Shown: in pieces, positions 764 to 56,272 of the stretch
How positions within the stretch are numbered: the stretch's first letter is position 1
Layout: every line of letters begins with the position of its first letter
DNA from: an uncultured Pelagibacteraceae bacterium
GTDB lineage: Bacteria; Pseudomonadota; Alphaproteobacteria; Pelagibacterales; Pelagibacteraceae
DNA length: 64,000 bases
Assembly: GCA_902589155.1 (NCBI GenBank)
Contig: CACIRV010000003.1
Location: 1-64,000, forward strand
Direction of reading: 5' to 3'
Notes under the pieces: generated by a model
Told to the model about the DNA's origin: nothing
The model's input: only the letters and a program-made list of their open reading frames with translations
Databases searched by the model: none
Made by a program: the position numbers and the translations under genes

Positions 764-3503
764 AAATTCTCCTAAAAGTATGAAAAAGCTAAAAATCGAA
801 GGTTTAGCTTTAAATAGTAAAGACGTTAAAAAAGGATTTATTTTTTTTGCGATAAAAGGAACCAAACTCAATGGTGAAAGATATATTGATAAAGCTATTA
901 AAAATGGAGCAATAATCATTATTTGCTCAAAAAGCTGTAAATTTCAAAGCGCAAAAGTAAATGTAATTAAAACAAAAAAAGTAAGAAATTATTTGAGTGA
1001 AATTTCTTCTAAATTTTACAAATTAAAACCAAAAAATATTATTGCAGTTACAGGCACAAATGGAAAAACATCTGTAGCAGATTTTTTTTATCAAATATTA
1101 AATGCAAATAATATTCCAGTCGCATCTATTGGAACGTTAGGAATTAGATATAAAAAAAAATTTATTAAGACTAATCTTACGTCGCCAGATGTAATAACAC
1201 TACACAAAAATCTCCATCAATTAAAAAAAAATAAAATTGACAATGTTATTATAGAGGCCTCTAGTCATGGTTTAGATCAAAATAGACTAGATAATCTAAA
1301 TCTCAAAGCAGGGATTTTCACTAACTTTAGCCAGGATCACTTAGACTATCACAAAACAATGAAAGACTATTTAAGAGCAAAACTAATTTTATTTACGAAA
1401 TTATTACCTAAAAAAAGTTATGTTATAACTGATAAATTTATTAAAGAGTATTCAATTATAGAAAAAATTTCTAAAAATAGGCAGCTAAGACTACTGGATG
1501 TTAACAAAAAATTTAATAATATTAAAAATCTCTCTTTATCCTTGCCGGGGTCATTTCAGAAGAAAAATTTATCCATGGCAATTTTAGCAGCGCAATTATG
1601 TAATTTAAGTTATACTAAAATTAACATTGCATTAAAAAAGATTAAAAATGTTGATGGCAGGCTAGAATTAATTAAAAAATATCCAAATAATATAAGAGTA
1701 TTTATTGACTACGCTCATACTCCAGACGCGTTACAAGAAGTTCTAAAGTCACTAAAAAATATTTTAAATACAAATATTTCATTAGTATTTGGATGTGGAG
1801 GAGAAAGAGATTTTAAAAAAAGACCTTTAATGGCTAAAATTGCAAAATCTTTTTGTAAAAAAATTTATGTTACTGATGATAATCCTAGAAAAGAAAATCC
1901 AAAAAAAATTAGAAAAGAAATCATTAATCATCTTAAAGGAAGCAACTATTTTAATATAGGAAATAGATCAAAAGCGATTAAAGAAGCAATATCGAAAGCA
2001 GAGCCGAATGAAACAATTTTAATTGCTGGAAAAGGCCATGAAAACTACCAAGACTATGGAAATAAAATTATTTCTATTTCTGATAGAAAAATAATAAAAA
2101 AATTGAAGATAAATAAAGAAGTGATAAATCAAAAAAAACAAAACTATTCATTTAACTCAAAAATTTTAAATAGAATTATTAAAAATAAGAAGATTTATTT
2201 ATTCAATGGCCTTGCCATAGACTCAAGAGACGTAAAAAAAGATAATTTATTTTTAGCCATTAAAGGAAAATATAACGACGGAAATCAATATATTTCAAAA
2301 GCTATAAAAAAAGGTGCTCGATATGTAGTTTCGTCAAAAAATAATAGAAAATTTAAAAATAAAATAGTTAAAGTTGATAATCCAATTAATTTTCTTAATA
2401 AATTTGCTAAGATTAAAAGGGACAATTGTAACGCAAAAATTTTAGCAATAACTGGGAGTGCTGGAAAAACGTCATTAAAAAATATCCTTAATATCTTGCT
2501 TCAAAAATATGACACAACCTACGCTTCACCAAGGTCTTTTAATAATCATTATGGCGTTCCAATAAGTTTATCTAATCTTAACCCAAATCATAAATTTGGT
2601 GTATTTGAAGTAGGGATGAGCAAGGCAGGTGAAATTAATCAATTATCTAAAATGATAAAACCCAATTTAGCTATAATTACAAATATAGCCGAAGCACATA
2701 TAGAAAATTTTAAAAATATTAAAGGCATAGCTAAAGCAAAAAGTGAAATTATAAATAATATTCAAAATGATGGTACAATTGTATTAAACCGTGATGATAA
2801 ATTTTTTAATTATTTAAATGCAAAAGCAAGATTAAAAAATATTAAAGTAATTACTTTTGGTAAATCTAAAAAATCGGATGTTCGTTTAATTAGAATAAAA
2901 CAAAATAATGCAATAAAAAATATTACAATAAAAATTAAAGATGAGATTTTAAAATTTAGAATAAAAGATATTAATGTTTACAATGTTCTTGCTTCCATGG
3001 CTGTTTTGCAAGAATTAGATCTAAATCTTCAAAAATCAATTCAAGTATTTAAGAATTTTGAACCATCTGAAGGCAGAGGCAGAATACACAAAATTAAGAG
3101 ATATAATAAGTTTTTTAGGTTAATCGATGAAAGCTACAATGCGAATCCATTTTCAGTTAAAAATGCATTAAATAATTTTTCAGAAATAAAGAAAGATAAT
3201 TTTAAAAAATACTTTTTGTTAGGAGATATGCTTGAACTTGGAAAGAAATCGGAGATTTATCATAGAGAGCTATCAAGACTTATTAACAGCTCAGATATTG
3301 ATAAAGTTTTTGTTACGGGAAAAAAGACCCTTTTTACCTATAAAAATTTGAAGAAAGATAAAAGAGGAAACATTTTACAAAACAATGACGATGTTGATTT
3401 AATTTTAAAAAATATAATCGCTAATAATGATTATTTAATGATAAAAGGATCCAACGCAACTGGATTAAACATTATTAGTAACGCAATGATAAAAGGCATT
3501 TAG
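741..3503 (+). CDS. murE-murF: Bifunctional MurE-MurF fusion ligase
   Basis: One 920-residue frame holds two complete Mur ligases. Residues 1-460 are MurE (UDP-MurNAc-L-Ala-D-Glu plus meso-diaminopimelate): ATP loop GTNGKTS at about 105-111 and the DNPR motif at 380-383 that marks diaminopimelate rather than lysine addition. Residues about 470-920 are MurF (adds D-Ala-D-Ala): an N-terminal domain restarting with LAIDSRDVKKDNLF and a second ATP loop TGSAGKTS at 571-578. The join is a short lysine-rich linker and no stop or restart interrupts it. In most bacteria these are adjacent separate genes of roughly 480 and 450 codons. The ATG at 741 is preferred over the one at 780 because it supplies the usual MurE N-terminal helix. 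Overlaps ftsI and abuts mraY. Confidence 0.95.
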   Translation: MLLKNLIKNSPKSMKKLKIEGLALNSKDVKKGFIFFAIKGTKLNGERYIDKAIKNGAIIIICSKSCKFQSAKVNVIKTKKVRNYLSEISSKFYKLKPKNIIAVTGTNGKTSVADFFYQILNANNIPVASIGTLGIRYKKKFIKTNLTSPDVITLHKNLHQLKKNKIDNVIIEASSHGLDQNRLDNLNLKAGIFTNFSQDHLDYHKTMKDYLRAKLILFTKLLPKKSYVITDKFIKEYSIIEKISKNRQLRLLDVNKKFNNIKNLSLSLPGSFQKKNLSMAILAAQLCNLSYTKINIALKKIKNVDGRLELIKKYPNNIRVFIDYAHTPDALQEVLKSLKNILNTNISLVFGCGGERDFKKRPLMAKIAKSFCKKIYVTDDNPRKENPKKIRKEIINHLKGSNYFNIGNRSKAIKEAISKAEPNETILIAGKGHENYQDYGNKIISISDRKIIKKLKINKEVINQKKQNYSFNSKILNRIIKNKKIYLFNGLAIDSRDVKKDNLFLAIKGKYNDGNQYISKAIKKGARYVVSSKNNRKFKNKIVKVDNPINFLNKFAKIKRDNCNAKILAITGSAGKTSLKNILNILLQKYDTTYASPRSFNNHYGVPISLSNLNPNHKFGVFEVGMSKAGEINQLSKMIKPNLAIITNIAEAHIENFKNIKGIAKAKSEIINNIQNDGTIVLNRDDKFFNYLNAKARLKNIKVITFGKSKKSDVRLIRIKQNNAIKNITIKIKDEILKFRIKDINVYNVLASMAVLQELDLNLQKSIQVFKNFEPSEGRGRIHKIKRYNKFFRLIDESYNANPFSVKNALNNFSEIKKDNFKKYFLLGDMLELGKKSEIYHRELSRLINSSDIDKVFVTGKKTLFTYKNLKKDKRGNILQNNDDVDLILKNIIANNDYLMIKGSNATGLNIISNAMIKGI

Positions 3504-4589
3504 ATGTTATTTAATTTACTTACATCCTTTATAGAGCATTATTCTTTCCTTAATGTTTTTAAATACCTTACTTTCAGAACAGGGCTAGCAGTAGTTACAT
3601 CTCTGATTGTAGTTTTTATTATTGGAGGACCTCTCATTAGAATTTTTTCAGAAAATATGATTACTGGACCAATAAGACAAGATGGCCCTATAGATCATAT
3701 TATAAAGAAATCAGGAACACCTACGATGGGAGGAGTCATTATCATAATTGGTATGCTTACCAGCACTTTGTTATGGGCTGATTTAAATAATATTTATATT
3801 TGGACTTTAGTTTTTGTATCTCTAAGTTTAGCATTATTAGGCTTTAGTGACGATCTTCTTAAAATAAAATTTAAAAATTCTAGAGGACTTAACTCCAAAT
3901 TAAAATTTCTTGGTCAGTTAATTATTAGTGCTATAGCTTTATTAATTCTAATAAATTTTTCAGACCATGAGTACCTGTATAATCTTTACTTTCCTTTCTT
4001 TAAAAATTTAGTTTGGCAGATGGGTATTTTTTTTATTCCGTTTGGATTATTTGTAATAATTGGATCATCCAATGCTGTGAATTTAACTGATGGATTGGAT
4101 GGCTTAGCTACTGTTCCGGTTATGTTAGTGGCACTTTCATATACACTGATTTCTTATGTCGTTGGAAATACAATTTTTTCTGAATATCTCCAGCTACAAT
4201 ATATCCCTGACGTAGGTGAGCTTTCCATATTTTGTGGTTCAATAGTTGGATCTTGTTTAGGTTTTCTTTGGTATAATGCCCCGCCTGCTAAAATCTTTAT
4301 GGGGGATACGGGTTCATTATCTTTAGGAGGTTCGTTAGCTGCAGTAGCTATAATTGCAAAACACGAAATCGTACTTGCAATAGTTGGAGGATTATTTGTT
4401 TTGGAGACAGTATCAGTAATTATTCAAGTTATCTCTTTTAAACTTACTGGAAAAAGAATTTTTAAAATGGCACCTATTCATCATCATTTTGAGCAAAAAG
4501 GTTGGGCTGAGTCAACAATTGTAATTCGATTTTGGATAATTGCAATAATATTAGCTTTGGTTGGATTAGCGACATTAAAATTACGTTAG
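3504..4589 (+). CDS. mraY: Phospho-N-acetylmuramoyl-pentapeptide transferase MraY
   Basis: Integral membrane enzyme that transfers phospho-MurNAc-pentapeptide from UDP to undecaprenyl phosphate, giving lipid I. The 361-residue length and about ten hydrophobic segments are typical. Family signatures are visible: NLTDGLDGLA near residue 195, MGDTGSLSLGG near 268 (catalytic aspartates) and the histidine triad PIHHHFE near 325. The ATG follows the murE-murF stop codon directly, so the genes form one operon. Confidence 0.97.
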   Translation: MLFNLLTSFIEHYSFLNVFKYLTFRTGLAVVTSLIVVFIIGGPLIRIFSENMITGPIRQDGPIDHIIKKSGTPTMGGVIIIIGMLTSTLLWADLNNIYIWTLVFVSLSLALLGFSDDLLKIKFKNSRGLNSKLKFLGQLIISAIALLILINFSDHEYLYNLYFPFFKNLVWQMGIFFIPFGLFVIIGSSNAVNLTDGLDGLATVPVMLVALSYTLISYVVGNTIFSEYLQLQYIPDVGELSIFCGSIVGSCLGFLWYNAPPAKIFMGDTGSLSLGGSLAAVAIIAKHEIVLAIVGGLFVLETVSVIIQVISFKLTGKRIFKMAPIHHHFEQKGWAESTIVIRFWIIAIILALVGLATLKLR

Positions 4590-4592
4590 TGA

Positions 4593-5885
4593 ATGTCTCA
4601 CAAATTAAATTTAAAAAAACTTACTTTTTTGGTATATGGATTAGGCTCTACAGGGCTTTCAGTAATTAAATATTTTAAAAAAAGAAAAATATATAACTTT
4701 TCTGTTTGGGATGATGATCTCAAATTAAGGAAAAAATTTAAATCTAAAAGCACTTCAAATTTAAGAAATGCTTTAGAAAACTCTGATTATATTGTTTTAA
4801 GCCCTGGTATAAGTTTAAAAAAAACAAAATATAAAAAAGATTTATTTAAATTCAAAAAAAAAATTATAACAGATATAGATTTACTGTATTTAAGTAATTT
4901 AAAATTTAAATCTATTGTGGTTACAGGGTCAAACGGTAAATCAACAACCTGTAAACTTATATCTCACTTATTGAAAAAAAATAAATTCAAAGTTAACTTA
5001 GGTGGAAATATTGGAACACCAGTTTTGAATTTAAAAATAAAGAAAAATATTTTTTTTGTTATTGAAGCTTCTTCTTTTCAACTTTCTCACTCAAAATTTA
5101 TACATCCTGATTATGCAATTTTATTAAATATTGTTAATGATCATTTAGATTGGCATGGATCAAAACAAGCTTATATTAAGTCAAAGTTAAAAATATTTGA
5201 TTTACAAACTAGAAATAATTTTGCTTTAGTGAATGAGGATTTAAGAGACATTTTTAAAAGAAAAAAATATTTGAGTAAATTAATATCAATTAAATTTAAA
5301 GATTATAAAAAAATAAAATTTAAAATAGAAAATGATTATTTAAAATCTAATACAAATGATGAAAATATGAATTTTGTATATACATTGTCAAAACTACTTA
5401 AAATTAACAAAAGTTCTTTTATAAAATCTATGAATTCTTTTTTGGGATTACCTCATAGATATGAGGTTTTTTTAAAAAAAAAAGATATTACTTTTATTAA
5501 TGATTCCAAAGCAACAAGTTTACAAGCAACTAAGTTTGCCTTGGCTAGTAGTAAAAATATTTTTTGGATACTTGGTGGCCTGCCCAAAGATAAAGATAAA
5601 ATTGATCTCAGATATATCAAAAATAATATTATTAAATCTTATATAATTGGGAAAAATATTAATTTTTTTAAGAAACAATTAAAAAATAAAATACAATTTT
5701 CTGTCACAAAAAATTTAAAAAATTCAATAATAAGCGCTTTAAAAGATATAAAGTCATTAAAAAGAATTAATAATACGATTTTATTAAGTCCAGGAGCAGC
5801 ATCATTCGATCAATTTAAAAACTTTGAAAATAGGGGCAACAAGTTTAAGAAACTAAGTAGACTATATGCTAAAAAATTTATTTAA
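4593..5885 (+). CDS. murD: UDP-MurNAc-L-alanine:D-glutamate ligase MurD
   Basis: Cytoplasmic ATP-dependent ligase adding D-glutamate to UDP-MurNAc-L-Ala. The 430-residue product has an N-terminal Rossmann-like UDP-binding domain (VYGLGSTGLS), the ATP loop TGSNGKST at 111-118, the central HLDWHGS segment, and a C-terminal domain with a SPGAASFDQF segment typical of MurD. It starts 3 nt after mraY and overlaps ftsW by 20 nt. Confidence 0.95.
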   Translation: MSHKLNLKKLTFLVYGLGSTGLSVIKYFKKRKIYNFSVWDDDLKLRKKFKSKSTSNLRNALENSDYIVLSPGISLKKTKYKKDLFKFKKKIITDIDLLYLSNLKFKSIVVTGSNGKSTTCKLISHLLKKNKFKVNLGGNIGTPVLNLKIKKNIFFVIEASSFQLSHSKFIHPDYAILLNIVNDHLDWHGSKQAYIKSKLKIFDLQTRNNFALVNEDLRDIFKRKKYLSKLISIKFKDYKKIKFKIENDYLKSNTNDENMNFVYTLSKLLKINKSSFIKSMNSFLGLPHRYEVFLKKKDITFINDSKATSLQATKFALASSKNIFWILGGLPKDKDKIDLRYIKNNIIKSYIIGKNINFFKKQLKNKIQFSVTKNLKNSIISALKDIKSLKRINNTILLSPGAASFDQFKNFENRGNKFKKLSRLYAKKFI

Positions 5886-6993
5886 ATTTGAATTTAATAA
5901 TTACTGGAGAAACATTGATAAAAATATTCTTTTTGGTTTTTTTATTTTATTTTTTTTAGGGCTTTTTTTTTCATTTTCTTCCACTTCCTCATTGGCAGGT
6001 GAAAGATTAAATAAAGCTTACTACTTCTTTTTTTCCAAACATTTAATTTTTACAGTATTAGCTCTTTTTATAATGTTTGTTATTTCGGCAATGGAGACCT
6101 CATTACTAAAGAAAATAGTTATTCCGTTTTTTATAATATCTTTTCTATTATTAGTTTTAGTACCAATTGTCGGAGTAGAGGTTAAGGGAGCGAAAAGATG
6201 GTTAGATTTATATCTGTTTAGGTTGCAACCTATAGAACTTTTAAAACCTTTTTTTATTTTAACAACAGTTAAAATATTAACTTTAGATAAGTTAAAAAAT
6301 TCTCAAGTAAGATATTTGTTCAGTTTTCTTTTGTTGATTTCAGTAATAATTCTTTTAATTGATCAACCTGATTTAGGGCAATCAATTTTACTTACAGGGA
6401 GTTGGATCGCAACTGTCTTTATTTCAGGGGTTAGCATAATATATATTTTTAGTTTTTTTATTTTCTTTTCTATCTTAGTAGGCAGCCTTTTATTTTTAAT
6501 GCCCGAGAAATTTGGTTATATAATTGATCGTTTAGTTACATTTTTAGATCCTAGTAAAGGAGATGCTTTTCAGTCTTCAACTGCTTTAAATGCTATCAAG
6601 CAAGGAGGCATCAAAGGTCAAGGAATGGGAGAAGGAATATTAAAAGATAGTGTGCCAGAAGCTCACACGGATTATATTATTGCTATCATATCCGAAGAAT
6701 ATGGTTCAATTATTTCAATCTTAATTATCACTATTTTTTTATATATTGCTTTTAGAATTATTAAAAATTGTGTTTTAAAAGACGATGAATTTTTAAAACT
6801 TTCTTTATGCGGACTTTCTTCATTGCTTATATTTCAAACATTTATTCATATTGGAGTAAATACCAGCTTATTACCAACAACAGGAATGACATTACCTTTT
6901 TTAAGCTACGGAGGATCATCTCTTATAGGAAGTGCTGTTTTAGCTGGAATAATTTTAAATTATACAAAAATTAAATTAGAAATAGATGAATAA
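5866..6993 (+). CDS. ftsW: Septal peptidoglycan glycosyltransferase FtsW
   Basis: SEDS-family membrane glycosyltransferase that polymerises lipid II at the septum with FtsI. The 375-residue protein has about ten membrane segments. SEDS signatures are visible: GAKRWLDL after the third segment, QPDLGQSIL, and the C-terminal LPFLSYGGSSL. Position between murD and murG separates it from the elongation paralogue RodA at 48.9 kb. It overlaps murD by 20 nt and murG by 8 nt. Confidence 0.95.
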   Translation: MLKNLFKFEFNNYWRNIDKNILFGFFILFFLGLFFSFSSTSSLAGERLNKAYYFFFSKHLIFTVLALFIMFVISAMETSLLKKIVIPFFIISFLLLVLVPIVGVEVKGAKRWLDLYLFRLQPIELLKPFFILTTVKILTLDKLKNSQVRYLFSFLLLISVIILLIDQPDLGQSILLTGSWIATVFISGVSIIYIFSFFIFFSILVGSLLFLMPEKFGYIIDRLVTFLDPSKGDAFQSSTALNAIKQGGIKGQGMGEGILKDSVPEAHTDYIIAIISEEYGSIISILIITIFLYIAFRIIKNCVLKDDEFLKLSLCGLSSLLIFQTFIHIGVNTSLLPTTGMTLPFLSYGGSSLIGSAVLAGIILNYTKIKLEIDE

Positions 6994-8101
6994 CAAAATC
7001 AAAAAAATAATAATTGCAACAGGTGGTACAGGTGGGCATATTTTTCCTGCCTATAGTTTAGCCAAACATTTTCTTGACAAGAAGATATATGTTAAAATAA
7101 TTTCTGACGATCGAGGTTTAAAATATTTAAAAGATTACGATGATATAAAAGTAATTAAGATTAATTCCTCTACTGTTTTTAAAAAAAACATCATTCAAAT
7201 GTTTTTTTCTATGTGCATTATTTTTTACTCTGCAATAAAGTCATTTTTTTTTTTATTAAAAGATAGGCCAAGTTTAGTTTTTGGTATGGGCGGATACTCA
7301 TCTTTTCCTGTTTGTATTGCAGCTAAAATACTCAGAATTCCATTTATCATTTATGAAAATAATTTATATATTGGAAAGGCTAACAAATATTTATTGCCAT
7401 ACGCAAAAAAAATTTTCGTATCTCATGGAGAATTACAAGGAATTAATGAAAAATATAAAAAAAAGATTAATGTAATTGGCAACATAATTCGAAAAGAAAT
7501 ACTTAATTTTGAGGTTAAGACAAATAAGACTAAGACAAAGCCTAATGAAAGTAATAAAAAATTAAAAATATTAATTCTAGGAGGAAGTCAAGCGGCTAAA
7601 ATTTTTGCTGAGAGGCTTCCAGAAATTTTTAAAGAGTGTAAAAAAGCAGAAATATCTTTAAAGATTTACCAACAATGTTTACCTGGGCAGAGTAAATTTT
7701 TGATTTCTTTTTATGAAAGTTTAAATATTGATTGTGAAATTTTTAATTTTACAAACAATATTTTAAATTATTTTTCTAAAGTTAATTTAGCAATAACTCG
7801 CTCAGGATCCTCAATGCTAGCGGAGTTGATTAACGCTCGGATACCCTTTATTTCTGTTCCTTTGCCTTCCTCAGCAGACGATCATCAATTAAAAAACGCT
7901 ATTTATTATGAAAAAAATGGTTATAGCTATTTAATAGAAGAAAAAGACTTAAATACAAAATTATTCCAATTAATTAAAAAAATTAACCAGGACTTATCAT
8001 TACTAAGTCAAATAATAACCAAACAAAGACAATATTCTGACAAATCAGTATATGAAAATATCGACAAACAAATAGAAGAGATAATTAATGAAGAAAATTA
8101 G
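6986..8101 (+). CDS. murG: Lipid II synthase MurG (GlcNAc transferase)
   Basis: Peripheral membrane GT28-type glycosyltransferase adding GlcNAc to lipid I. The N-terminal GGTGGHIFPA loop (residues about 13-22), the second-domain GGSQAA loop, and the SGSSMLAEL donor-site segment are all clear. Length (371) fits the family. It overlaps ftsW by 8 nt and murC by 14 nt. Confidence 0.96.
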   Translation: MNNKIKKIIIATGGTGGHIFPAYSLAKHFLDKKIYVKIISDDRGLKYLKDYDDIKVIKINSSTVFKKNIIQMFFSMCIIFYSAIKSFFFLLKDRPSLVFGMGGYSSFPVCIAAKILRIPFIIYENNLYIGKANKYLLPYAKKIFVSHGELQGINEKYKKKINVIGNIIRKEILNFEVKTNKTKTKPNESNKKLKILILGGSQAAKIFAERLPEIFKECKKAEISLKIYQQCLPGQSKFLISFYESLNIDCEIFNFTNNILNYFSKVNLAITRSGSSMLAELINARIPFISVPLPSSADDHQLKNAIYYEKNGYSYLIEEKDLNTKLFQLIKKINQDLSLLSQIITKQRQYSDKSVYENIDKQIEEIINEEN

Positions 8102-9485: not shown

Positions 9486-10390
9486 ATTTAAAAATAGATC
9501 ATTTAAAAAAGAAATTTGGCAAGAATTTAATTATTAATGAAAATTTATCAAAATATAGTTGGTTCAATCTCGGAGGCCCTGCTGAAATTTTCTTTAGACC
9601 AGAAAATAAAGATCAGCTTGTAAATTTTTTAAATGAAATAAATGAAAATAATTATAAGATTCATGTTTTGGGAGCTGGCTCAAACACTTTAATTAGAGAT
9701 TCTGGCGTAAGAGGCGTTGTGATTAAATTAGGCTCTAAGTTTTCAGATATTAAGTTATTAACAAAAGATACAATTGAAGTTGGCGCAGCTATATTAGATA
9801 GGAAGGTTTCTGATTTCGCAAAAAACAACAATATTGGCAGCATGGAATTTTTGTCTTGTATTCCAGGCTCTATAGGAGGAGCAGTAATAATGAACAGCGG
9901 ATGTTATGGAGCAGACATTTCTGAAATTTTATTGTCTATTAAAGTAATTGACGATAAAGGAAAAGAAAAAGAGATAAAAAATGATGAAATTGAATTTACT
10001 TACAGAGGCACAGATCTTCCGAGAAATTATATAATATTATCTGCAATACTGAAGGGATCTATTTCCAAGACACAATTGATTGCAAAAAAACAAGAAGAGC
10101 TAATTCAAAAAAAAAAAGACTCTCAACCTAGTCAAATAAAAACTGGTGGAAGTACATTTAAAAATATTAATGAAAAAAAAGCGTGGGTGTTAATAAAGGA
10201 AGCTGGCTGCGATAAATTTTTTGTTGGAGATGCGAAAATTTCTGAAAAACATTGTAATTTTTTTATAAATAATGGAACCGCTAAGGCGTCAGACATAGAA
10301 AAATTAATCAATAAAGTAAAAAAAGAAGTACAGCATAAGACTGGAATTAACCTCGAGCTAGAGATTAAAATTATTGGTGATGAAATATAA
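9482..10390 (+). CDS. murB: UDP-N-acetylenolpyruvoylglucosamine reductase MurB
   Basis: FAD/NADPH enzyme forming UDP-MurNAc. The 302-residue type I-like protein has the FAD-binding entry YSWFNLGGPAEIF, GAGSNTLIRDSGVRG, the SCIPGSIGGAVIMN segment and the catalytic serine region TGGSTFKN. Translation is coupled to murC (ATGA overlap), and the 3' end overlaps ddl by 17 nt. Confidence 0.96.
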   Translation: MNLKIDHLKKKFGKNLIINENLSKYSWFNLGGPAEIFFRPENKDQLVNFLNEINENNYKIHVLGAGSNTLIRDSGVRGVVIKLGSKFSDIKLLTKDTIEVGAAILDRKVSDFAKNNNIGSMEFLSCIPGSIGGAVIMNSGCYGADISEILLSIKVIDDKGKEKEIKNDEIEFTYRGTDLPRNYIILSAILKGSISKTQLIAKKQEELIQKKKDSQPSQIKTGGSTFKNINEKKAWVLIKEAGCDKFFVGDAKISEKHCNFFINNGTAKASDIEKLINKVKKEVQHKTGINLELEIKIIGDEI

Positions 10391-14213: not shown

Positions 14214-18777
<4,564 letters not shown>

Positions 18778-24188: not shown

Positions 24189-25649
24189 TCAAGTACCACA
24201 GTAAGTCATATAATTTTTTTCTGAAAATGGTGGCGATTGGTAGGCAGAATTTGTTGCTATATCATCATAAGGATTTTGCAAAACTTTAAGTAATTCACGA
24301 ACTTTACTCAAATCATTCTTTTCTGCTGCATAATTTAATGCCTCTTCTACAAAATGATTCCTTGGAATAATTAAAGGATTTACTTCACGCATGATCTTTA
24401 ATGATATGTTTTGAGAAACATTATTTAACTTAATTCGATTTTCCCATTTTTTCTTCCATAACATAAATTTTTTTTCATTATAAATTTCGTTTTCTTGTTT
24501 ATATTCTTTCATTAAATAACAAAAAGTATTTGTATAATCAGCTTTATTTTGATGCATCCAAGACAACAGCTCAATAATTAATTGTTCATCTTTAGGATCA
24601 TCTCCAATTAAACCTAATTTTTTTTTCATCATTTCTAACCACTTTTTTTTATATTTTTTTGGAAATTCTTTTAGTACCTCAGTCGCAATTTTTATGGCAA
24701 CTTCGCTGTCTTTATTAATTAAAGGAAGCAAAGATTCTGCAAATCTCTCTAAATTCCATTTGGCTACTCTTGGCTGGTTATAATAAGAGTATCTTCCTTG
24801 ATGATCTATTGAACTAAATACAGTATCAGGATTGTATTTATCCATGAATGCACAAGGCCCATAGTCAATAGTCTCGCCTGAAATTGTCATATTATCTGTA
24901 TTCATTACTCCATGAATAAAACCAACTCTCATCCAGTTGCAAATTAAATCAATTTGTTTTTCCAAAACAACTTTGAGAAGATCTACGGCAGGAGATTTTG
25001 ATTTTTTTAAATCAGGGTAGTGACGGTTGAGAGTATAATTAAATAAAGATTTTAAATCATTTTTATCTTTAGAAATTAATGCATACTGAAAAGTACCAAC
25101 TCTAATATGGCTAGAAGCTATACGAGTTAATATTGCTCCTTTTAAAATTGTTTCACGAACTACGTCTTCTCCAGTTTTAACTACAGCTAAACTTCTAGTA
25201 GTTGGAACTTTTAAACTATTCATTGCTTCGCTAATTATGTATTCTCTAATCATCGGTCCTAAAGCAGCTCTTCCATCAGCGTTTCTAGAATATGGAGTTT
25301 TTCCAGACCCTTTAAATTGAATATCATAGCGTTTTTTATTTTTGTCTAAATGTTCTCCTATCATAAGAGCTCGTCCATCACCCAAAATTGTAAAGTGTCC
25401 AAACTGGTGACCCGCATAAGCCTGAGCTATTGACTCTGACCCTTCAGGTAATTGATTACCAGAAAATATTAAAGCTAATTCTTTATTATTTATTTGAGAA
25501 AAATCTAAATCAATTTCTTTTGATAAATCATGATTAAAAAGAGCTAGTTCTGGAGCTTTAACAGGTATTGGATTTAATTTTGAAAACATACTTTGAGACA
25601 AGTTTGAGTATGTATTATCGAATTTCCAACCAATTTGTTTTCTTAACAT
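24189..25649 (-). CDS. selO: SelO family pseudokinase (protein AMPylase)
   Basis: SelO/YdiU (UPF0061) transfers AMP from ATP to Ser/Thr/Tyr of proteins and is linked to redox stress. The 486-residue protein has the family stretches AQAYAGHQFGHF, LGDGRALMIGE, FKGSGKTPYSRNADGRAALG, and the metal-binding DNMTISGETIDYGPCAF. The C-terminus ends in YCGT: cysteine near the place where some eukaryotic members carry selenocysteine. Its start codon lies 11 nt downstream (minus strand) of the first ssrA-like repeat. It marks the left edge of the accessory region. Confidence 0.93.
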   Translation of the reverse strand: MLRKQIGWKFDNTYSNLSQSMFSKLNPIPVKAPELALFNHDLSKEIDLDFSQINNKELALIFSGNQLPEGSESIAQAYAGHQFGHFTILGDGRALMIGEHLDKNKKRYDIQFKGSGKTPYSRNADGRAALGPMIREYIISEAMNSLKVPTTRSLAVVKTGEDVVRETILKGAILTRIASSHIRVGTFQYALISKDKNDLKSLFNYTLNRHYPDLKKSKSPAVDLLKVVLEKQIDLICNWMRVGFIHGVMNTDNMTISGETIDYGPCAFMDKYNPDTVFSSIDHQGRYSYYNQPRVAKWNLERFAESLLPLINKDSEVAIKIATEVLKEFPKKYKKKWLEMMKKKLGLIGDDPKDEQLIIELLSWMHQNKADYTNTFCYLMKEYKQENEIYNEKKFMLWKKKWENRIKLNNVSQNISLKIMREVNPLIIPRNHFVEEALNYAAEKNDLSKVRELLKVLQNPYDDIATNSAYQSPPFSEKNYMTYCGT

Positions 25650-25660
25650 ATATTACAATA

Positions 25661-25685
25661 GGAGCGTTCTATTGCCAGGTACCCT
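25661..25685 (-). repeat. ssrA 3'-end-like hairpin repeat, copy 1
   Basis: Read on the minus strand it is a degenerate copy of the terminal ssrA hairpin: core CACCTGGCAACAGAAC appears as TACCTGGCAATAGAAC, flanked by GGG and CTCC. The core change C to T turns a C-G pair of the inner stem (CTG-GCAA-CAG) into a G-U pair, so the fold is kept. It lies between selO and the next minus-strand gene. Confidence 0.8.
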
Positions 25686-25715
25686 TATCTTTTAAAATTA
25701 TTCAACATTTTTATA

Positions 25716-26291
25716 CTAACGATATGCTTCATTATCCACGAATTTATGAAATTCATTTGATCCTAATCCTACCATTAATTTATCGGCAATGTTTTCTTCT
25801 ATTTTTTTACTCCAATCATGACATTCTATCGAAGCTTTACCACCACCTTTTAATTCAAATCTTGTATGCCATACAAAGCTTTTTCCTGATTTATCATAAC
25901 CGTGTTTAACTTTTTCATATCTTTTTATTGATGCTGATGGAAAAACTTTAGAAATTTCTTTTTCAATTTCTTTTCTTTTAGATAAACAATCTTCAATATT
26001 ATCTATGAAAATTCTACCAGCTAACGAATGAATAGTGTATTTATCGTCATTATTTTTATAGGCAAGTTGAATATCGTCATAGTTAGTACTTTTCTTTTCT
26101 CTCAAAACAATACCTTTATATTTTCCAGAATAATCAAATTTTTTAATTTTTTTTATTTCTTTTGCTGACATGAAATCTAATAGACTATCTCCAATACTCA
26201 TCCCTTCAATCTGAAAGTCTCTAATATCATCTGCTTGAGCTGAGGATATAAAATATAAGCTCAGAATTAATATTTTCATTATCTTTTTCAT
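25716..26291 (-). CDS. Secreted SIGDSLLD-family protein, paralogue 1
   Basis: A 191-residue protein of unknown function with a clear signal peptide (MKKIMKILILSLYFISSAQA, cleavage after AQA). The mature start reads DDIRDFQIEGMSIGDSLLDF, a motif shared with the two genes at 27137 and 27716. A C-terminal block (KGGGKASIECHDW) matches CYDW and CENW in the paralogues; two cysteines (in DCLSK and ECHDW) are conserved in the family and could form a disulfide. Probably periplasmic. The start codon lies 10 nt downstream of repeat copy 2. No function can be assigned. Confidence 0.8.
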   Translation of the reverse strand: MKKIMKILILSLYFISSAQADDIRDFQIEGMSIGDSLLDFMSAKEIKKIKKFDYSGKYKGIVLREKKSTNYDDIQLAYKNNDDKYTIHSLAGRIFIDNIEDCLSKRKEIEKEISKVFPSASIKRYEKVKHGYDKSGKSFVWHTRFELKGGGKASIECHDWSKKIEENIADKLMVGLGSNEFHKFVDNEAYR

Positions 26292-26301
26292 AGTTTTGTT
26301 A

Positions 26302-26326
26302 GGGGGGGTTCTGTTGCCAGGTGCTG
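26302..26326 (-). repeat. ssrA 3'-end-like hairpin repeat, copy 2
   Basis: Minus-strand core GCACCTGGCAACAGAAC is intact, but the outer stem is damaged: the 3' arm is a run of C (CCCCCCC) and the 5' arm reads AACAGC, so the GGGGC/GCCCC pairing of ssrA is lost while the inner CTG-GCAA-CAG stem remains. Located 10 nt upstream of the start of the minus-strand gene ending at 26291. Confidence 0.8.
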
Positions 26327-26332
26327 TTAACG

Positions 26333-26707
26333 TTAAAGTTTTATTGGTTTACCGTATTTATTTTTCTTTTTCTCACCTTCTGTACAATACCAAACAAGTA
26401 GAACTATTCCGCCTATAATTCCAACATAAGGTATACCTGATATTAACTGCCACCATCCAGATCTACCTATGTCGTGCAGACGTCTTGCAGTTACAGCAAT
26501 CGTGGGAAAAAATATTACTAGGATAAAAATTATACCTAAAATCAAAGCAGAGTTTCCTGAGATAATTGAAAGCAAAATTAATAAATATAATAAAGCAATT
26601 GTTCCATAGCTAAATAAATAAAAATACCAAAACTCTGATCTAGAAGCTCTACCTTGAAAAGTAGCATATTTTTTAAAACAAGTTTCTACAGATTTTTTAA
26701 AGTTCAT
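26333..26707 (-). CDS. DUF805 family membrane protein
   Basis: 124 residues with the DUF805 hallmarks: an N-terminal FKKYATFQGRASRSEFWYF segment, three to four membrane helices, and ARRLHDIGRSGWW preceding the last helices. DUF805 proteins are small inner-membrane proteins of unknown activity found widely in bacteria. A cytoplasmic lysine-rich tail follows (GEKKKNKYGKPIKL). It sits between ssrA-like repeats 2 and 3 as a single-gene unit. Confidence 0.85.
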   Translation of the reverse strand: MNFKKSVETCFKKYATFQGRASRSEFWYFYLFSYGTIALLYLLILLSIISGNSALILGIIFILVIFFPTIAVTARRLHDIGRSGWWQLISGIPYVGIIGGIVLLVWYCTEGEKKKNKYGKPIKL

Positions 26708-26741
26708 AACCCAACCTAACTAAAAACTAACTTCTTTACAA

Positions 26742-26766
26742 GGGAGCGTTCTGTTGCCAGGTGCCC
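26742..26766 (-). repeat. ssrA 3'-end-like hairpin repeat, copy 3
   Basis: Minus-strand core GCACCTGGCAACAGAACGC is identical to ssrA; the outer arms read AAGGG and CCCTT instead of GGGGC/GCCCC, still able to pair. Located 34 nt before the DUF805 start. On the plus strand its CAGGTGCCCTTA end is directly followed by TTAAGGACACCTG, making a second, longer inverted repeat (26759-26783). Confidence 0.85.
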
Positions 26767-26769
26767 TTA

Positions 26770-26784
26770 TTAAGGACACCTGAC
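26770..26784 (+). repeat. Left terminal inverted repeat of a 1.56-kb block
   Basis: TTAAGGACACCTGAC on the plus strand. The inverted complement of 28313-28327 is TTAAGGGGACCTGAC, 13 of 15 matches. The pair encloses the genes at 26790-28309. Both ends also resemble half of the ssrA hairpin (AAGGGCACCTGGC), so they may be truncated, oppositely oriented copies of it. Confidence 0.6.
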
Positions 26785-26789
26785 TTTGT

Positions 26790-27026
26790 CTATCTCGAAA
26801 ATATACTCTCTAAAATGGCTCTGATCAAACCAAACGCAAACAGCGCAAGAAAAATTACTATTGGTATGGCAAGCCACATTCCTAATGTACTTAATACGCA
26901 AAAATCACTAATAGTGAAATCAAAAGGTACTGGACACTCGTTTACATTAATAACTCTTGCATGTGCATAATTGCTCAAAGAAAAAAAGTATATAAGCAAG
27001 ATCCATTTATTTATTTTATTTTTCAT
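26790..27026 (-). CDS. Small secreted or membrane protein, unknown
   Basis: About 78 residues from the ATG at 27026 (an ATG at 27029 is equally possible; a longer frame to 27101 adds a non-signal-like region). Starts with a signal peptide (MKNKINKWILLIYFFSLSNYAHA), followed by a short exported segment with two cysteines (NECPVPFDFTISDFC) and a C-terminal membrane helix (LGMWLAIPIVIFLALFAFGLI). Topology suggests a protein anchored in the inner membrane with a disulfide-bonded periplasmic loop. No family recognised. Confidence 0.6.
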   Translation of the reverse strand: MKNKINKWILLIYFFSLSNYAHARVINVNECPVPFDFTISDFCVLSTLGMWLAIPIVIFLALFAFGLIRAILESIFSR

Positions 27027-27095
27027 CATGATCTCAATATAAGATCTAATAAAAAATTGTCTTGTCCAAGATTTTTCATAAATTTGGACAATAAC

Positions 27096-27123
27096 TTGCA
27101 TTCATTTCGGCAAGATTTATGTT
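27096..27123 (+). promoter_or_regulatory. Likely promoter for the 27137-28309 gene pair
   Basis: TTGCAT at 27096-27101 and TATGTT at 27118-27123 are separated by 16 nt and lie 13 nt before the ATG at 27137. This is the only spacing of this kind in the divergent region. The same TTGCAT -35 occurs before leuA. Confidence 0.4.
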
Positions 27124-27136
27124 AGATTTATAGAAA

Positions 27137-27715
27137 ATGAAAAAAACTTTAGCGATATTAGTTTTAATCCTGTGCTTCATAACCCCATCTCAGGCTGATG
27201 ATATCCATGAGTTTGAGATAGATGGAATGAGTATAGGTGATAGTTTGCTTGATTATTTTTCTAAAGATAAAATTCTTAATGCTAGAAATTATGATGAATT
27301 TCCTTCTGATATGAAATTTAGAATTATAGATATTTATCTAGAGAATAAATTTTATGAGGGTGTTCAATTTTATTACATTCCTGAAGATGAAAAATTTATT
27401 ATACAAGCTTTAAATGGTAGAAAATTTTTTACTAATATTGAAAACTGCTACACTGAAAAGAAAAAAATTGAGAAAATATTATCAGGTGAATTTGATAATG
27501 CTAGAATAGATCGTCAAAAAAAATTAAAACATTTAGATGATCCAACTGGAAAATCTACCTACACTGCTACCTTTTTTAACTTAGGTAGCGGAGGGAGAGG
27601 ATCGGTTACTTGTTATGATTGGCATTTAAATACTGGTAACAGAATAAGTATTGGAGTTTCTATTCAATCTGAAACAGTTTCTAATTGGGTAGATAGTAAT
27701 TTTGGTATAAATTAA
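27137..27715 (+). CDS. Secreted SIGDSLLD-family protein, paralogue 2
   Basis: 192 residues, signal peptide MKKTLAILVLILCFITPSQA, then DDIHEFEIDGMSIGDSLLDY as in the paralogues at 25716 and 27716. The C-terminal block reads GSGGRGSVTCYDW. Two family cysteines are kept (ENCYTEK and TCYDW). Likely periplasmic; function unknown. The next paralogue starts directly after its TAA stop, so the two are co-transcribed. Confidence 0.8.
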   Translation: MKKTLAILVLILCFITPSQADDIHEFEIDGMSIGDSLLDYFSKDKILNARNYDEFPSDMKFRIIDIYLENKFYEGVQFYYIPEDEKFIIQALNGRKFFTNIENCYTEKKKIEKILSGEFDNARIDRQKKLKHLDDPTGKSTYTATFFNLGSGGRGSVTCYDWHLNTGNRISIGVSIQSETVSNWVDSNFGIN

Positions 27716-28309
27716 ATGAAGAAACTTTTAGCGATCATAGTTTCAAGCTTATGCTTTTTGAGCAATTCCCAGGCGAATAATATTAAAGACTTTCAGATTG
27801 ATGGAATAAGTATAGGAGATAGTTTATTAGATCATTATACCTTGGATCAAATACAAAAAGCTCAGAAGATAAGAACTCCCTACTATCATAAAGATAAGTT
27901 TGTTGAATTCGAAACAAAACCAAAAAAATCACAACTTTATGATTCTATAAAATTTACATATAAACAAAATGACAAAGATTTTAAATTATATGGAATAGCT
28001 GGAATAATAGATTTTCCAAAAGATTTTAATAAGTGTATCGAAACCAAAAAAAATGCAGTAACAGATATAGAAAAAGTTTTTCCAGATGCAGTAAAAACAG
28101 ATTATGGCAAAACTCTATCTGTTTACGACAAAAGCAAAAAATCTTATTTTATTGAAACAAATTTTTTATTAAAAGGGGGAAGTCGAATTAGAATATATTG
28201 TGAAAATTGGAGCGATGAATTAACAAAAAAAAACCTATGGCGGGATAATTTGAGTATAATTTTAAACGATGTTATTTTTTTAAATTTTTTACGCTCAACT
28301 TATAATTAA
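27716..28309 (+). CDS. Secreted SIGDSLLD-family protein, paralogue 3
   Basis: 197 residues, signal peptide ending SNSQA, mature start NNIKDFQIDGISIGDSLLDH, C-terminal block KGGSRIRIYCENW. Same cysteine pair (NKCIETK, YCENW). The ATG abuts the stop of paralogue 2, an arrangement expected of a tandem duplication. Sequence between motifs has diverged strongly, so the duplication is not recent. Function unknown. Confidence 0.8.
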   Translation: MKKLLAIIVSSLCFLSNSQANNIKDFQIDGISIGDSLLDHYTLDQIQKAQKIRTPYYHKDKFVEFETKPKKSQLYDSIKFTYKQNDKDFKLYGIAGIIDFPKDFNKCIETKKNAVTDIEKVFPDAVKTDYGKTLSVYDKSKKSYFIETNFLLKGGSRIRIYCENWSDELTKKNLWRDNLSIILNDVIFLNFLRSTYN

Positions 28310-28312
28310 TTA

Positions 28313-28327
28313 GTCAGGTCCCCTTAA
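28313..28327 (-). repeat. Right terminal inverted repeat / truncated ssrA-like copy
   Basis: On the minus strand TTAAGGGGACCTGAC, the partner of 26770-26784. It has the orientation of the ssrA-like copies and resembles their first half, but lacks the CAACAGAAC half. It directly abuts the stop codon of the minus-strand gene at 28328. Confidence 0.55.
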
Positions 28328-28516
28328 CTATTTTCCAAGTGTACCAAATTTAGCCATATCCAAACATTTTTTCATCTGTTTTGGTCTATCTTTGTAATAT
28401 GTTTCACAAGCTTTTAGTTGCTCACGAAATTTTTTCGTTGTGCCCATATAAACCGAGATAGAAATTATAATTGCACCAATTAAAATTGATAAAGCTGTTA
28501 AGTACTCTTTTTTCAT
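28328..28516 (-). CDS. 62-residue single-span membrane protein
   Basis: Starts at the ATG 28516 (MKKEYLTALS); a longer frame to 28573 runs through the ssrA-like repeat and gives the nonsense peptide GAPGNRTPL, so it is rejected. One membrane helix (residues 7-24) is followed by a charged tail with two cysteines (KACETYYKDRPKQMKKC, CX13C) resembling a small CX(n)C domain. Start codon 8 nt downstream of repeat copy 4. Function unknown. Confidence 0.6.
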   Translation of the reverse strand: MKKEYLTALSILIGAIIISISVYMGTTKKFREQLKACETYYKDRPKQMKKCLDMAKFGTLGK

Positions 28517-28524
28517 AATTTTAA

Positions 28525-28549
28525 GGGGCGTTCTGTTGCCAGGTGCCCC
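28525..28549 (-). repeat. ssrA 3'-end-like hairpin repeat, copy 4
   Basis: All 25 bases are identical to the terminal ssrA hairpin (outer stem GGGGC/GCCCC, core ACCTGGCAACAGAAC). Similarity continues on the 5' side: GGTTAAACGGTTT here against GGTAACGGGGTTT in ssrA. Identity stops two T after the hairpin, exactly at the presumed ssrA end. Confidence 0.9.
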
Positions 28550-28655
28550 AAACCGTTTAACCTTATACAACAATTCTAGATCATAAAAAACGTCAATTTC
28601 TTTGCTGGGTGTGTCCTTATTGTATCCAACGGTGTGACAGGCTATAGTTAATTCA

Positions 28656-29192
28656 ATGAAAAATAAAAAAATTAAAGTTGAAAAATTTCACCCTTATACA
28701 GCTTTATGTATCTTTTCCGTTATCTTAGGTTTATTAGTCGGTGGTTTTTTTCTTTTTCAAATTAAAGAATATCTGCCTTTGCCAATGACAAACTTTTTTG
28801 GTGAAGCAGGTATGAAAGATGTATTTGGAACTCCTCAACCTTATAATGATGGTGATATATTCAGACCATTTTTCGCAGGTATATCTTGGGTCCTAGGAAC
28901 TTTGGCATGCCTATTTGTTTTTAATTTTTTTAAAAAAGGCTTTGCATATAGTTTTTTGTATTCCCTAGATATTTTTCCAAAAAATAATTTAAATAATATT
29001 ATGGGTTGGATTGTTTTGTTATTAGGACTCCCTATTTTTTGGGCGATCATAGTGACGTTTATTCAAGGAAGTATACATTTAATAAATATCAATTTTGATA
29101 CATCTTTTTCAAACGACAATATTTTTCTTATCTTGCTGTCTATTTGGATATTTTTTTTAGTCTATGGTTGGGTTCAAGGTAAATCAAGGTAA
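28656..29192 (+). CDS. Four-helix membrane protein, unknown
   Basis: 178 residues with four predicted membrane helices (about 16-36, 70-92, 112-135, 152-172) and a short extracytoplasmic loop (GEAGMKDVFGTPQPYNDGDIF) between the first two. Begins 106 nt after repeat copy 4 and lies opposite in direction to ssrA. No recognised family or motif. It is the unit nearest the intact tmRNA gene, hence perhaps the newest insertion. Confidence 0.7.
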   Translation: MKNKKIKVEKFHPYTALCIFSVILGLLVGGFFLFQIKEYLPLPMTNFFGEAGMKDVFGTPQPYNDGDIFRPFFAGISWVLGTLACLFVFNFFKKGFAYSFLYSLDIFPKNNLNNIMGWIVLLLGLPIFWAIIVTFIQGSIHLININFDTSFSNDNIFLILLSIWIFFLVYGWVQGKSR

Positions 29193-29235
29193 AGTATCTA
29201 AGTTTTAATTCTCTATACACTAAAATTTCTTTTCT

Positions 29236-29251
29236 CACTGTGACCACAGTG
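29236..29251. promoter_or_regulatory. 16-bp palindrome, operator-like
   Basis: CACTGTGACCACAGTG: perfect 7-bp arms around a 2-nt centre. GC-rich for this region and not followed by a T run on either strand, so it is not an ordinary terminator. Located between the 178-residue membrane protein and the ssrA end. Could be a regulator binding site or recombination-related site; nothing in the window identifies a binder. Confidence 0.45.
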
Positions 29252-29302
29252 TGCCCACTTTTTCAAAAAATATTGTTTAACGGAAGTTTTGAGTCTTTGG
29301 AA

Positions 29303-29327
29303 GGGGCGTTCTGTTGCCAGGTGCCCC
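29303..29327 (-). repeat. Terminal ssrA hairpin, parent of the repeat family (copy 5)
   Basis: Outer stem GGGGC/GCCCC and inner stem CTG/CAG closed by a GCAA tetraloop. This is the functional copy inside the tmRNA gene; copies at 28525, 26742, 26302 and 25661 have the same orientation without the rest of the tmRNA. Confidence 0.9.
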
Positions 29328-29558
29328 AAACCCCGTTACCTAATTAACAAAGTTAATTAAGCTGCAAGTGCGTAACTTTCGTTAGCATTTGTAAATTGGC
29401 CCGTTACGTCGGAACCATCTCGTACGAAAGAATAGCCTTTAGACATCCGTCGATCCTAATTCACCCCCGTAAGTTGTAAATGGTGGAGGTGGTGGGTACT
29501 GCCCCCACGTCCGTAATGTTTATTACGAAATTCGTTTATCGTCATAGTTGGAAAACCA
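29303..29558 (-). ncRNA. ssrA: Two-piece (permuted) tmRNA
   Basis: Read on the minus strand: an acceptor piece with T-arm stem GTGGG/CCCAC (29492-29508), acceptor strand CACCTCC and encoded ACCA (29481-29484); a 12-nt intervening segment (29469-29480); then the coding piece starting GGGGGTGA (29468), whose first 7 bases pair with CACCTCC. Downstream is the conserved AGGATCGACGG, and the tag reading frame ANESYALAA followed by TAA (about 29360-29389). The stop codon sits in a hairpin (TTAATTAAC/GTTAATTA). The piece ends with hairpin GGGGC-(ACCTGGCAACAGAAC)-GCCCC at 29303-29327. The permuted layout is the alphaproteobacterial form. The T-loop reads GGCAGTA instead of TTCRANY. tmRNA rescues stalled ribosomes with SmpB. 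The outer ends are approximate. Confidence 0.93.
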
Positions 29559-29566
29559 ACACTATT

Positions 29567-29594
29567 AATATAAAACTCTTATAAAGAGATTCAA
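29567..29594 (-). promoter_or_regulatory. Probable ssrA promoter
   Basis: On the minus strand TTGAAT (29589-29594) and TATATT (29567-29572) are spaced 16 nt, predicting a start near 29560, just upstream of the acceptor piece. It overlaps the thyX 5' region. Any read-through beyond ssrA would enter the minus-strand accessory genes. Confidence 0.45.
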
Positions 29595-29608
29595 TAAGTT
29601 TATTCAAA

Positions 29609-30556
29609 ATGAAACTAACAAATGAACAGAAGCAAGAAATTGCAGATCAACAGTCGCAGAAAAACCAAACAAAAAGGGTAACTTCACCTGAATTAGAAAA
29701 AATACTCTACGAAGCTCTTCCTGTTTTAGACCATGGATTTGTTAGAGTAGTTGACTATATGGGTGACGATACTTCTATAGTTCAATCGGCTAGAGTTTCT
29801 TACGGAAAAGGAACTAAAAAAGTTTCAACAGACGAAGGACTAATTAAATATTTAATGAGACACTGGCATTCAACTCCCTTTGAAATGTGTGAAATTAAAT
29901 ACCATGTTAAGCTTCCAATATTTATTGCTCGCCAATGGATAAGACACAGAACAGCGAATGTTAATGAATATTCAGCAAGATATTCGATTTTAGATAAAGA
30001 ATTTTATATTCCATCAAAAGAACAGTTATCAGCACAATCAACAATAAACAGACAAGGAAGAGGAGACCTAATAACTGGTGAACAAGCAGATGAAGTTCTT
30101 AAAATTTTAAAAGATGATGCTACTAGAACTTACGATAACTATGAAAAAATGCTTAATGAAAAATTTGATGGAACAACAATAGATGAAAATAAATCTGGTC
30201 TTGCAAGAGAATTGGCAAGAATGAATTTAACTTTAAATTCTTACACACAGTGGTACTGGAAAACAGATTTATTAAACTTATTAAATTTTTTATTTTTAAG
30301 AGCGGATAAGCATGCTCAATATGAAATTAGAGTTTACGCAGATACAATGTTAGACACGGTTAAGAAATGGGTGCCAATTACACACGCTGCTTTTTTAGAC
30401 TATAGAGTGGGAGCAGTTCATGTTTCCTCTAAAGGAAAAAAAGTAATTCAAAAGATGATTAAAGGCGAAAAATGTGAATTTGAAAACTCTGATCTATCTA
30501 AAAGAGAGTGGAATGAGTTAATGAACTCTTTCAGTTTTAAAGATAAAATCGTATAG
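29609..30556 (+). CDS. thyX: Flavin-dependent thymidylate synthase ThyX
   Basis: Makes dTMP from dUMP with methylene-THF and reduced FAD/NADPH. The ThyX motif RHRx7S is present as [11 protein letters not shown] (112-122), with upstream HWHSTPFEM. At 315 residues it is longer than the roughly 220-250 residue forms, mostly by an N-terminal extension and an insert, as in other alphaproteobacteria. Divergent from ssrA. It implies that no folate-oxidising ThyA is needed. Confidence 0.95.
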
Positions 30557-56191: not shown

Positions 56192-56197
56192 TTTTTC

Positions 56198-56272
56198 CTC
56201 CTTTTTAGTACTTCGACAGTATGTCGGGTGTACAATATAGTTCAAATACCCGGTTTTAATTTGAGAATATTT
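56198..56272 (-). promoter_or_regulatory. SAM-V-type riboswitch next to the metY ribosome site
   Basis: On the minus strand CGGGT/ACCCG pair (around 56250 and 56225) enclose ATTTGAACTATATTGTAC; CAAAT upstream pairs with ATTTG; a GTCGAAGTACTAAAAAGGAGG tract follows and includes the metY Shine-Dalgarno. This fits the SAM-V class known from marine bacteria, including Candidatus Pelagibacter, which controls translation. Identification relies on recalled features and context. Confidence 0.65.

Follow-up and report, generated by a model that had tools for sequence, protein, structure and literature searches.

In a 64,000-nucleotide window of the genome of an uncultured Pelagibacteraceae bacterium (SAR11; assembly GCA_902589155.1, contig CACIRV010000003.1, positions 1 to 64,000), four direct copies of the 3' end of ssrA, the gene for transfer-messenger RNA (tmRNA), lie in the same orientation between selO and ssrA itself (Table 1). 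We consider it likely that the permuted ssrA has received a succession of site-specific insertions at its 3' end and that these copies are the resulting attachment (att) junctions, that the inserted cassettes, which with few exceptions carry no integrase, are mobilised in trans, and that the old junctions decay. Under this model, the units would be small gene cassettes, each with the ssrA-end core on both sides. An incoming cassette would bring a new ssrA 3' end beside the gene through a presumed crossover, so that each event would restore the ssrA end, and the old end would shift outward to become the far junction of the cassette. Because the new end is supplied next to ssrA and the old one displaced, distance from ssrA should track insertion age. 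Old junctions would then wear by ordinary mutation, and integrase-bearing elements found at the ssrA site of related genomes may supply the integrase.

On the plus strand, the ssrA 3' end of the window reads GGGGC-GTTCTGTTGCCAGGTG-CCCC, a left arm of 5 bases, a core of 16 and a right arm of 4. A 14-mer search allowing ≤3 mismatches gave 10 matches in the window against a shuffle mean of 3.86, and 10 was reached in 0 of 100 shuffles. Across the whole assembly (778 kb, 70% complete), five sites including ssrA were found at ≤2 mismatches, all at this locus and on one strand. A preliminary description of this DNA had given the copy nearest ssrA (copy 4) as identical to it over 25 bases, and the identity in fact extends over 32 nt; its accounts of copy 3 (intact core, altered arms) and of copy 1 (core and arm changes) also agree with our counts. 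Copies 2 and 4 are each followed on the right by sequence that belongs to a unit-head family present in other genomes. Since copy 1 adjoins selO, as does the single copy at another locus (L081), the 3.6 kb from copy 1 to ssrA are probably inserted DNA.

Table 1. Repeat copies, units and flanking genes at the ssrA locus of the window. Mismatches to the window's own ssrA are given as left arm/core/right arm; ORF, open reading frame.
Feature	Position	Strand	Mismatches	Remarks
selO, distal flank of array	24189-25649	-		PF02696
Repeat copy 1, rank 4	25661-25685	+	1/2/1	2 core changes; ~12 nt off selO start (single copy of L081: ~10 nt)
Unit A	25682-26302	-		ORF 25716-26291 with signal-peptide-like start; cargo clusters with L133 unit
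Repeat copy 2, rank 3	26303-26327	+	1/0/3	core intact; right arm CTGT is part of unit B head
Unit B	26324-26742	-		DUF805 gene 26333-26707; cargo clusters with L115 unit and L071 flank segment
Repeat copy 3, rank 2	26743-26767	+	1/0/1	core intact; arms GGAGC and CCCT
Unit C, possibly composite	26764-28524	.		ORFs 26790-27101 (-), 27137-27715 (+), 27716-28309 (+), minus-strand ORF from 28328
Probable degenerate half-repeat in unit C	about 28313-28328	+		CAGGTCCCCTTAAC; by eye
Repeat copy 4, rank 1	28525-28549	+	0/0/0	matches ssrA over 32 nt, 28523-28554
Unit D, rank 1	28546-29302	+		sole window unit with canonical head and tail
Unit D head pair	28610-28627	+		TGTGTCC / TGTATCC, 11 bp spacing, 1 mismatch; predicted arm-type sites
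Unit D ORF	28656-29192			178 aa, no Pfam match
Unit D tail pair	29239-29256	+		TGTGACC / TGTGCCC, 11 bp spacing, 1 mismatch; predicted arm-type sites
ssrA, permuted two-piece tmRNA	29299-29598	-		Rfam alpha_tmRNA RF01849, 221.6 bits; ARAGORN agrees; 3' end is the predicted insertion site (attB)
ssrA 3'-end copy, rank 0	29303-29327	+		reference repeat
thyX, proximal flank	29609-30556	+		PF02511

Similar arrays are widespread in the genus. The core was detected at ≤1 mismatch in 138 of 169 genus genomes and at least twice in 89, with a maximum of eight copies (hand count), these counts pooling both strands and all contigs and including some off-site copies. Our comparison covered 81 loci, 76 of them with an ssrA body: the window plus 80 fetched loci from genomes with listed matches, which were chosen largely for having at least two copies, and copies per locus are biased. 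After each locus had been oriented to the strand with more matches, a 21-mer scan (≤6 mismatches) returned 281 forward matches versus 1 reverse match. All 76 ssrA-bearing loci have one copy at the ssrA 3' end and any others in the same orientation beyond that end, the exceptions being two 6-mismatch matches past ssrA (L090, L138), which were excluded. The flanks are conserved as well: thyX on the ssrA side and at least one of fumC, a PRA-PH/MazG-like gene and selO on the opposite side were present at 57 of the 81 loci, and loci without both flanks were often cut by contig ends or fetch limits. The window has all four of these genes. At one empty-type site (L081), selO is followed 10 nt on by a single repeat and then by ssrA, and at three others (L129, L136, L145) the MazG-like gene lies 83-84 nt from a single repeat; among seven further single-copy loci, the gap is larger in four and no left gene is within reach in three. 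Insertion between conserved flanks, with empty sites elsewhere, is a feature that these arrays share with ssrA genomic islands. selO stands beside the array at only 8 of the 81 loci and may thus itself be variable cargo or an old insertion. Among 53 genomes of the sister family in the order sample, the core was absent from 13 and present once in 40 (hand count); the sister family's own core differs by one base and one mismatch was allowed, so decayed copies there would escape detection.

The units share their ends far more than their contents. The units and flank segments that reach 60 bp number 245 and fall into 158 cargo clusters, and one head family (single linkage, with several subtypes) opens 86 of 197 units drawn from 70 cargo clusters, with tail families that pair with it. 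Two units consist of head and tail alone (99 and 128 nt, by eye). Most units are under 2 kb, and in 56 of 70 heads (hand count) the distance from the distal repeat to the start of the first ATG-initiated ORF of at least 45 aa is 97-129 nt. Cargo ORFs of at least 80 aa mostly point towards ssrA (223/291); those of window units A and B point away. A Pfam scan covered 105 of 186 representative cargo ORFs and gave five trypsin-like and four DNA-methylase matches among the 25 commonest families listed, and restriction subunits were confirmed at two loci (L096 and L120). This cargo of DNA methylases, restriction subunits and trypsin-like proteases suggests that part of the array may reflect phage pressure. 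In several units (window 25716-28309; L133 4394-16719) we also observed small proteins of one family, which begin like signal peptides and continue with a stretch that resembles DDIRDFQI; those of the window have no Pfam match.

An array of this kind could in principle have grown by duplication or homologous recombination at short repeats, with no integrase involved. The repeats are short sequences that could recombine, and the signal-peptide protein family does recur in several units; such a process would leave unexplained the empty sites, the defined unit ends and the unrelated cargo behind one head family, and we regard it as quite improbable. All 30 named contigs carrying an exact cassette-head pattern belong to Pelagibacteraceae or Candidatus Pelagibacter. 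Phage origin was considered and rejected, the 32-nt pattern of the one head type searched having 0 exact matches in IMG/VR. The ssrA end likewise had no match in INPHARED. Separately, 61 viral contig stretches (L006-L066) carry the 16-nt ssrA core, mostly with an ssrA-like flank by eye, which suggests phage-borne permuted tmRNA genes; phage-borne tmRNA genes are described in the portion of PMC9004378 drawn on here, and the stretches fit that description.

If cassettes enter beside ssrA, damage to the copies should accumulate outward. The preliminary description had proposed insertion order on the strength of the window's four copies, and had suggested counting substitutions against ssrA in many genomes; on the 76 ssrA loci, such a count shows a distance trend and not the lack of one. 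The test used 192 non-ssrA copies in 65 of these loci, with within-locus permutation on the 44 that have at least two such copies; L067, L077, L098, L100 and L133 (5/81), having no ssrA body, lay outside it. From rank 1 to rank 6, the fraction of intact cores falls (0.71, 0.57, 0.47, 0.36, 0.17, 0.12) and mean core mismatches rise (0.77, 0.89, 1.24, 1.68, 2.17, 2.25), with 0.20 and 0.00 intact and 1.80 and 2.50 mismatches at ranks 7 and 8 (n = 5 and 2). The association of core damage with rank is significant by permutation (p = 0.0012, 5000 shuffles; p = 0.005 in a second run of 2000 shuffles; p = 0.0005 with either of two filters), and the commonest core changes are mainly transitions. Left-arm mismatches also rise with rank (p = 0.0018). 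Units themselves change along the array: both canonical ends become rarer from rank 1 to rank 8 (30/65, 14/43, 6/34, 4/22, 1/12, 1/8, 0/5, 0/2; p = 0.0005), and cargo common to another locus becomes more frequent (24/65, 20/43, 18/34, 15/22, 7/12, 4/8, 2/5, 2/2; p = 0.02). By locus, the core slope is upward in 26 of the 44, flat in 11 and downward in 7. The order along the array is thus statistical, age being recorded in aggregate and not as a clean clock.

The right arm behaves differently. On average it departs from ssrA whatever the rank, and it has no rank trend (114 concordant versus 114 discordant pairs, p = 0.56), because the right arm is the inserted unit's own head sequence. We therefore rejected loss of the outer stem as a decay signal. 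The preliminary description had read copy 2 as having lost this stem; its letters do differ, and they are better explained by replacement at insertion than by decay. The wider insertion-order claim holds for the core and left arm across loci and fails for the outer arm; in the window, only copy 1 has a changed core. These same results bear on the idea that the copies are functional RNA elements or terminators retained for their own sake: the core, being the ssrA 3' end, could form part of a hairpin, but a right arm that on average departs from ssrA at every rank and a core that decays with rank leave this extremely improbable.

A different explanation of the rank trends would let cassettes enter at any intact copy of the array, as in integrons, with the freshness of the proximal copies due to another cause such as more frequent exchange. 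Every listed copy in two loci (L071 and L103, four copies each) has a perfect core, the same cargo cluster can occur at differing ranks in differing genomes, and the seven loci that slope the wrong way would be accommodated. We nevertheless think this somewhat unlikely, as the way in which core damage, canonical ends and shared cargo change with rank fits entry at ssrA in all three cases.

Near one or both ends, many units carry what we predict from their placement to be integrase binding sites. Exact 7-mer pairs with a 10-13-bp period occur at 56 heads and 47 tails of 167 units, counted per unit with no reduction by cargo cluster, whereas mononucleotide shuffles predict 2.5 and 2.75; of 136 windows from the middle of units, 5 have such a pair. 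Among 305 pairs, 290 have a period of 11 or 12 bp. The repeat motif varies between cassettes and is clearly the same at both ends of a cassette in one of the two main head types. With one unit per cargo cluster (68), then the 45 that have one of four main tail families, type B heads (n = 16) share 76 6-mers with their tails versus 28 after permutation (p = 0.0004; p = 0.0002 by units), and type A heads (n = 29) share 84 versus 64 (p = 0.016). By their placement, the pairs would be arm-type sites of a tyrosine integrase. As a control, 5 of 9 tRNA-bearing loci with PF00589-type integrases, the tRNA being the candidate insertion site of each element, have an exact pair ≤160 nt from the tRNA 3' end where ~0.14 loci are expected from density, four of the five being at tRNA-Leu(tag) and hence not independent; L181, having no tRNA, was outside this control.

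The pairs could alternatively be operators of a transcription activator. Head pairs do lie directly upstream of the cassette ORF, the start of which keeps a narrow range of distances from the repeat, as noted above; pairs are found also at tails, often with the same motif, as well as beside integrase genes and beside the tRNA genes of integrase loci, and on balance we find the operator reading improbable. A dual role as operator and arm site is possible.

The window units and nearly all others have no integrase gene. A tblastn search of 197 units with 14 integrases recovered one full gene of the P0001 type, in G035, and one 36-aa fragment in another unit; the fragment, in a unit of L095 (oriented 2907-6583) with no intact integrase, matches the integrase of the G338 element (61%) and is a possible relic. 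In all, three P0001-type genes lie near ssrA, in G035, G338 and G330 (where the gene is broken). Relatives of P0001 were absent from viral contigs (close relatives only), INPHARED and plasmids. None of the listed PF00589 matches falls inside a fetched array, those of G056 and G109 being on the same contig ~100 kb off. Resident PF00589 proteins, usually one of ~309-325 aa per genome, occur in 120 of the 169 genomes outside the fetched arrays, and we take them to be Xer. Serine recombinases were rejected as the driver: PF00239 was found in just 2 of 169 genomes, one being the G035 element.

The two integrase-encoding elements at ssrA carry repeats of this kind as well. In G035, GGTACATAGT occurs at 15379, 15391 and 15402, 53-86 nt from the ssrA core, and again at 7950 and 7962; this second pair adjoins the stop codon of the integrase gene and is ~365 nt away from the far att. 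In G338, CAACGAAGTT occurs at 839, 851 and 862, ~50-75 nt from the ssrA core, and beside the integrase gene once exactly at 10122 with a partial copy at 10134. Three integrase-less cassettes (L085, L093, L096), the cargo of which includes DNA methylase, ResIII or PD-(D/E)XK genes, carry the similar motif AACTTCGTG three times per end, with tail sites 50, 62 and 73 nt from att, which agrees with the spacing in G338 to about one base. Five integrase-less segments have 2-3 exact copies of the 9-mer CAACGAAGT. Because the arm motifs of integrase elements at ssrA resemble those of the cassettes in layout, we think it most likely that integrases of this kind, encoded on another element, move the cassettes in trans.

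Several observations weigh against this account of insertion and mobilisation. Units A-C of the window are without canonical ends, exact pairs stand at both ends in only 25 of the 167 units, and type A units sharing a head-tail 6-mer (21/29) are not above permutation (p = 0.38). The rank statistics ignore relatedness between loci. P0001-type proteins would be tyrosine recombinases judging by residues picked out by eye, such as R235, R345 and Y377, which are among those conserved in a four-sequence alignment; P0001 had no noteworthy match in Pfam, PHROG, NCBIfam or PDB sequences, and its single-sequence structure model is poor (predicted local distance difference test, pLDDT, 39). P0001-type genes occur in 1 genome of the 169 from the genus and in 6 of the 397 from the taxonomic family, and no integrase was found in these genomes for either of the two commonest head types. 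No full-length distal core of G338 was detected at ≤3 mismatches, the by-eye candidate being a 12-nt half, ACAGAACGCCCC. No unit end has two exact copies of the 10-mer CAACGAAGTT in its nearest 250 nt, and the G035 element alone has two such copies of the 10-mer GGTACATAGT; the three copies of GGTACATAGT in L110 are 530-588 nt from the proximal att. No excision, circular form or integration event was observed. Finally, not all cores are at ssrA, for some lie at a tRNA-Thr or near a tRNA-Leu.

These off-site cores lie in distinct settings. A second array of similar cassettes is present away from ssrA in L133 and L179 (contig C1 of G109), where the final core copy, with 3 mismatches, extends into the 3' end of the tRNA-Thr; the ssrA of this genome is elsewhere (L189), with one core match in the fetched stretch. 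In L098 and L100, a 251-bp unit sits between two cores ~150 nt from tRNA-Leu(taa), and the same unit is found at ssrA in L095 and L121. Elsewhere in the window, a SAM-V riboswitch at 56195-56260 (minus strand) scores over the Rfam gathering cut-off.

How the streamlined genomes of SAR11 gain flexible genes is unsettled, and this locus provides a defined place of entry, with every event marked by a repeat, and a sequence of events open to checking in single-cell genomes. Array order, if the model is true, would record the genes taken up over time by one of the most abundant bacterial groups of the ocean, and the integrase that moves a given cassette could be predicted from the arm-motif class of that cassette. 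Integrons hold small gene cassettes in an array, with a repeated recombination site between them and apparent entry at one end. The SAR11 array shares these three features; it differs in that the repeat is the ssrA 3' end, that no integrase was found beside the array (G035 and G338 being exceptions), and that the cassettes carry their own head region upstream of the ORF. Tentatively, and with slightly less than even confidence, we propose an integron-like SAR11 system with no resident integrase, in which cassettes, probably with their own promoters, borrow integrases from passing elements to enter at the ssrA 3' end, arm repeats specify the mover and array order is the acquisition log. Williams reportedly described, in 2003, cyanobacteria in which the permuted ssrA is a site of integration at its non-tRNA-like end; there too the ssrA 3' end would serve as attachment site, whereas in SAR11 it is repeated many times and bounds integrase-less units.

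Searches by title or abstract of the open-licence literature returned no description of ssrA cassette arrays in SAR11. In the sections of their paper drawn on here, Wilhelm et al. (2007; PMC2217521) describe SAR11 hypervariable regions and report no integron attC sites with them; we do not claim their third region (HVR3) as the same locus, since it ends in osmC-like and betaine-homocysteine methyltransferase genes. Tycheposons, according to the portion of PMC10872708 consulted, are 4-200 kb elements at tRNA genes with a tyrosine recombinase, and resemble the present units as cargo elements at RNA genes of streamlined aquatic bacteria.

The nearest precedent found is in Dehalococcoides, where, in the part of PMC3146451 used here, tandem islands downstream of ssrA are bounded by direct repeats of its 3' end, and 15 of them have no integration module. 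Those islands insert in the T-loop region and have CcrB-like serine recombinase modules (PMC3146451, same part), whereas the SAR11 site is the permuted ssrA 3' end, with units mostly <2 kb, arm-like repeats and a putative tyrosine recombinase in a few genomes. The window units and nearly all others do not encode the integrase expected of an ssrA genomic island; the G035 and G338 elements do. The integrase-less units also resemble the cis-mobilisable elements outlined in the same part of that report (PMC3146451), having att at both ends and no integrase in the unit. In SAR11, such units make up almost the whole array, their heads and tails are conserved and their arm motifs fall into several classes.

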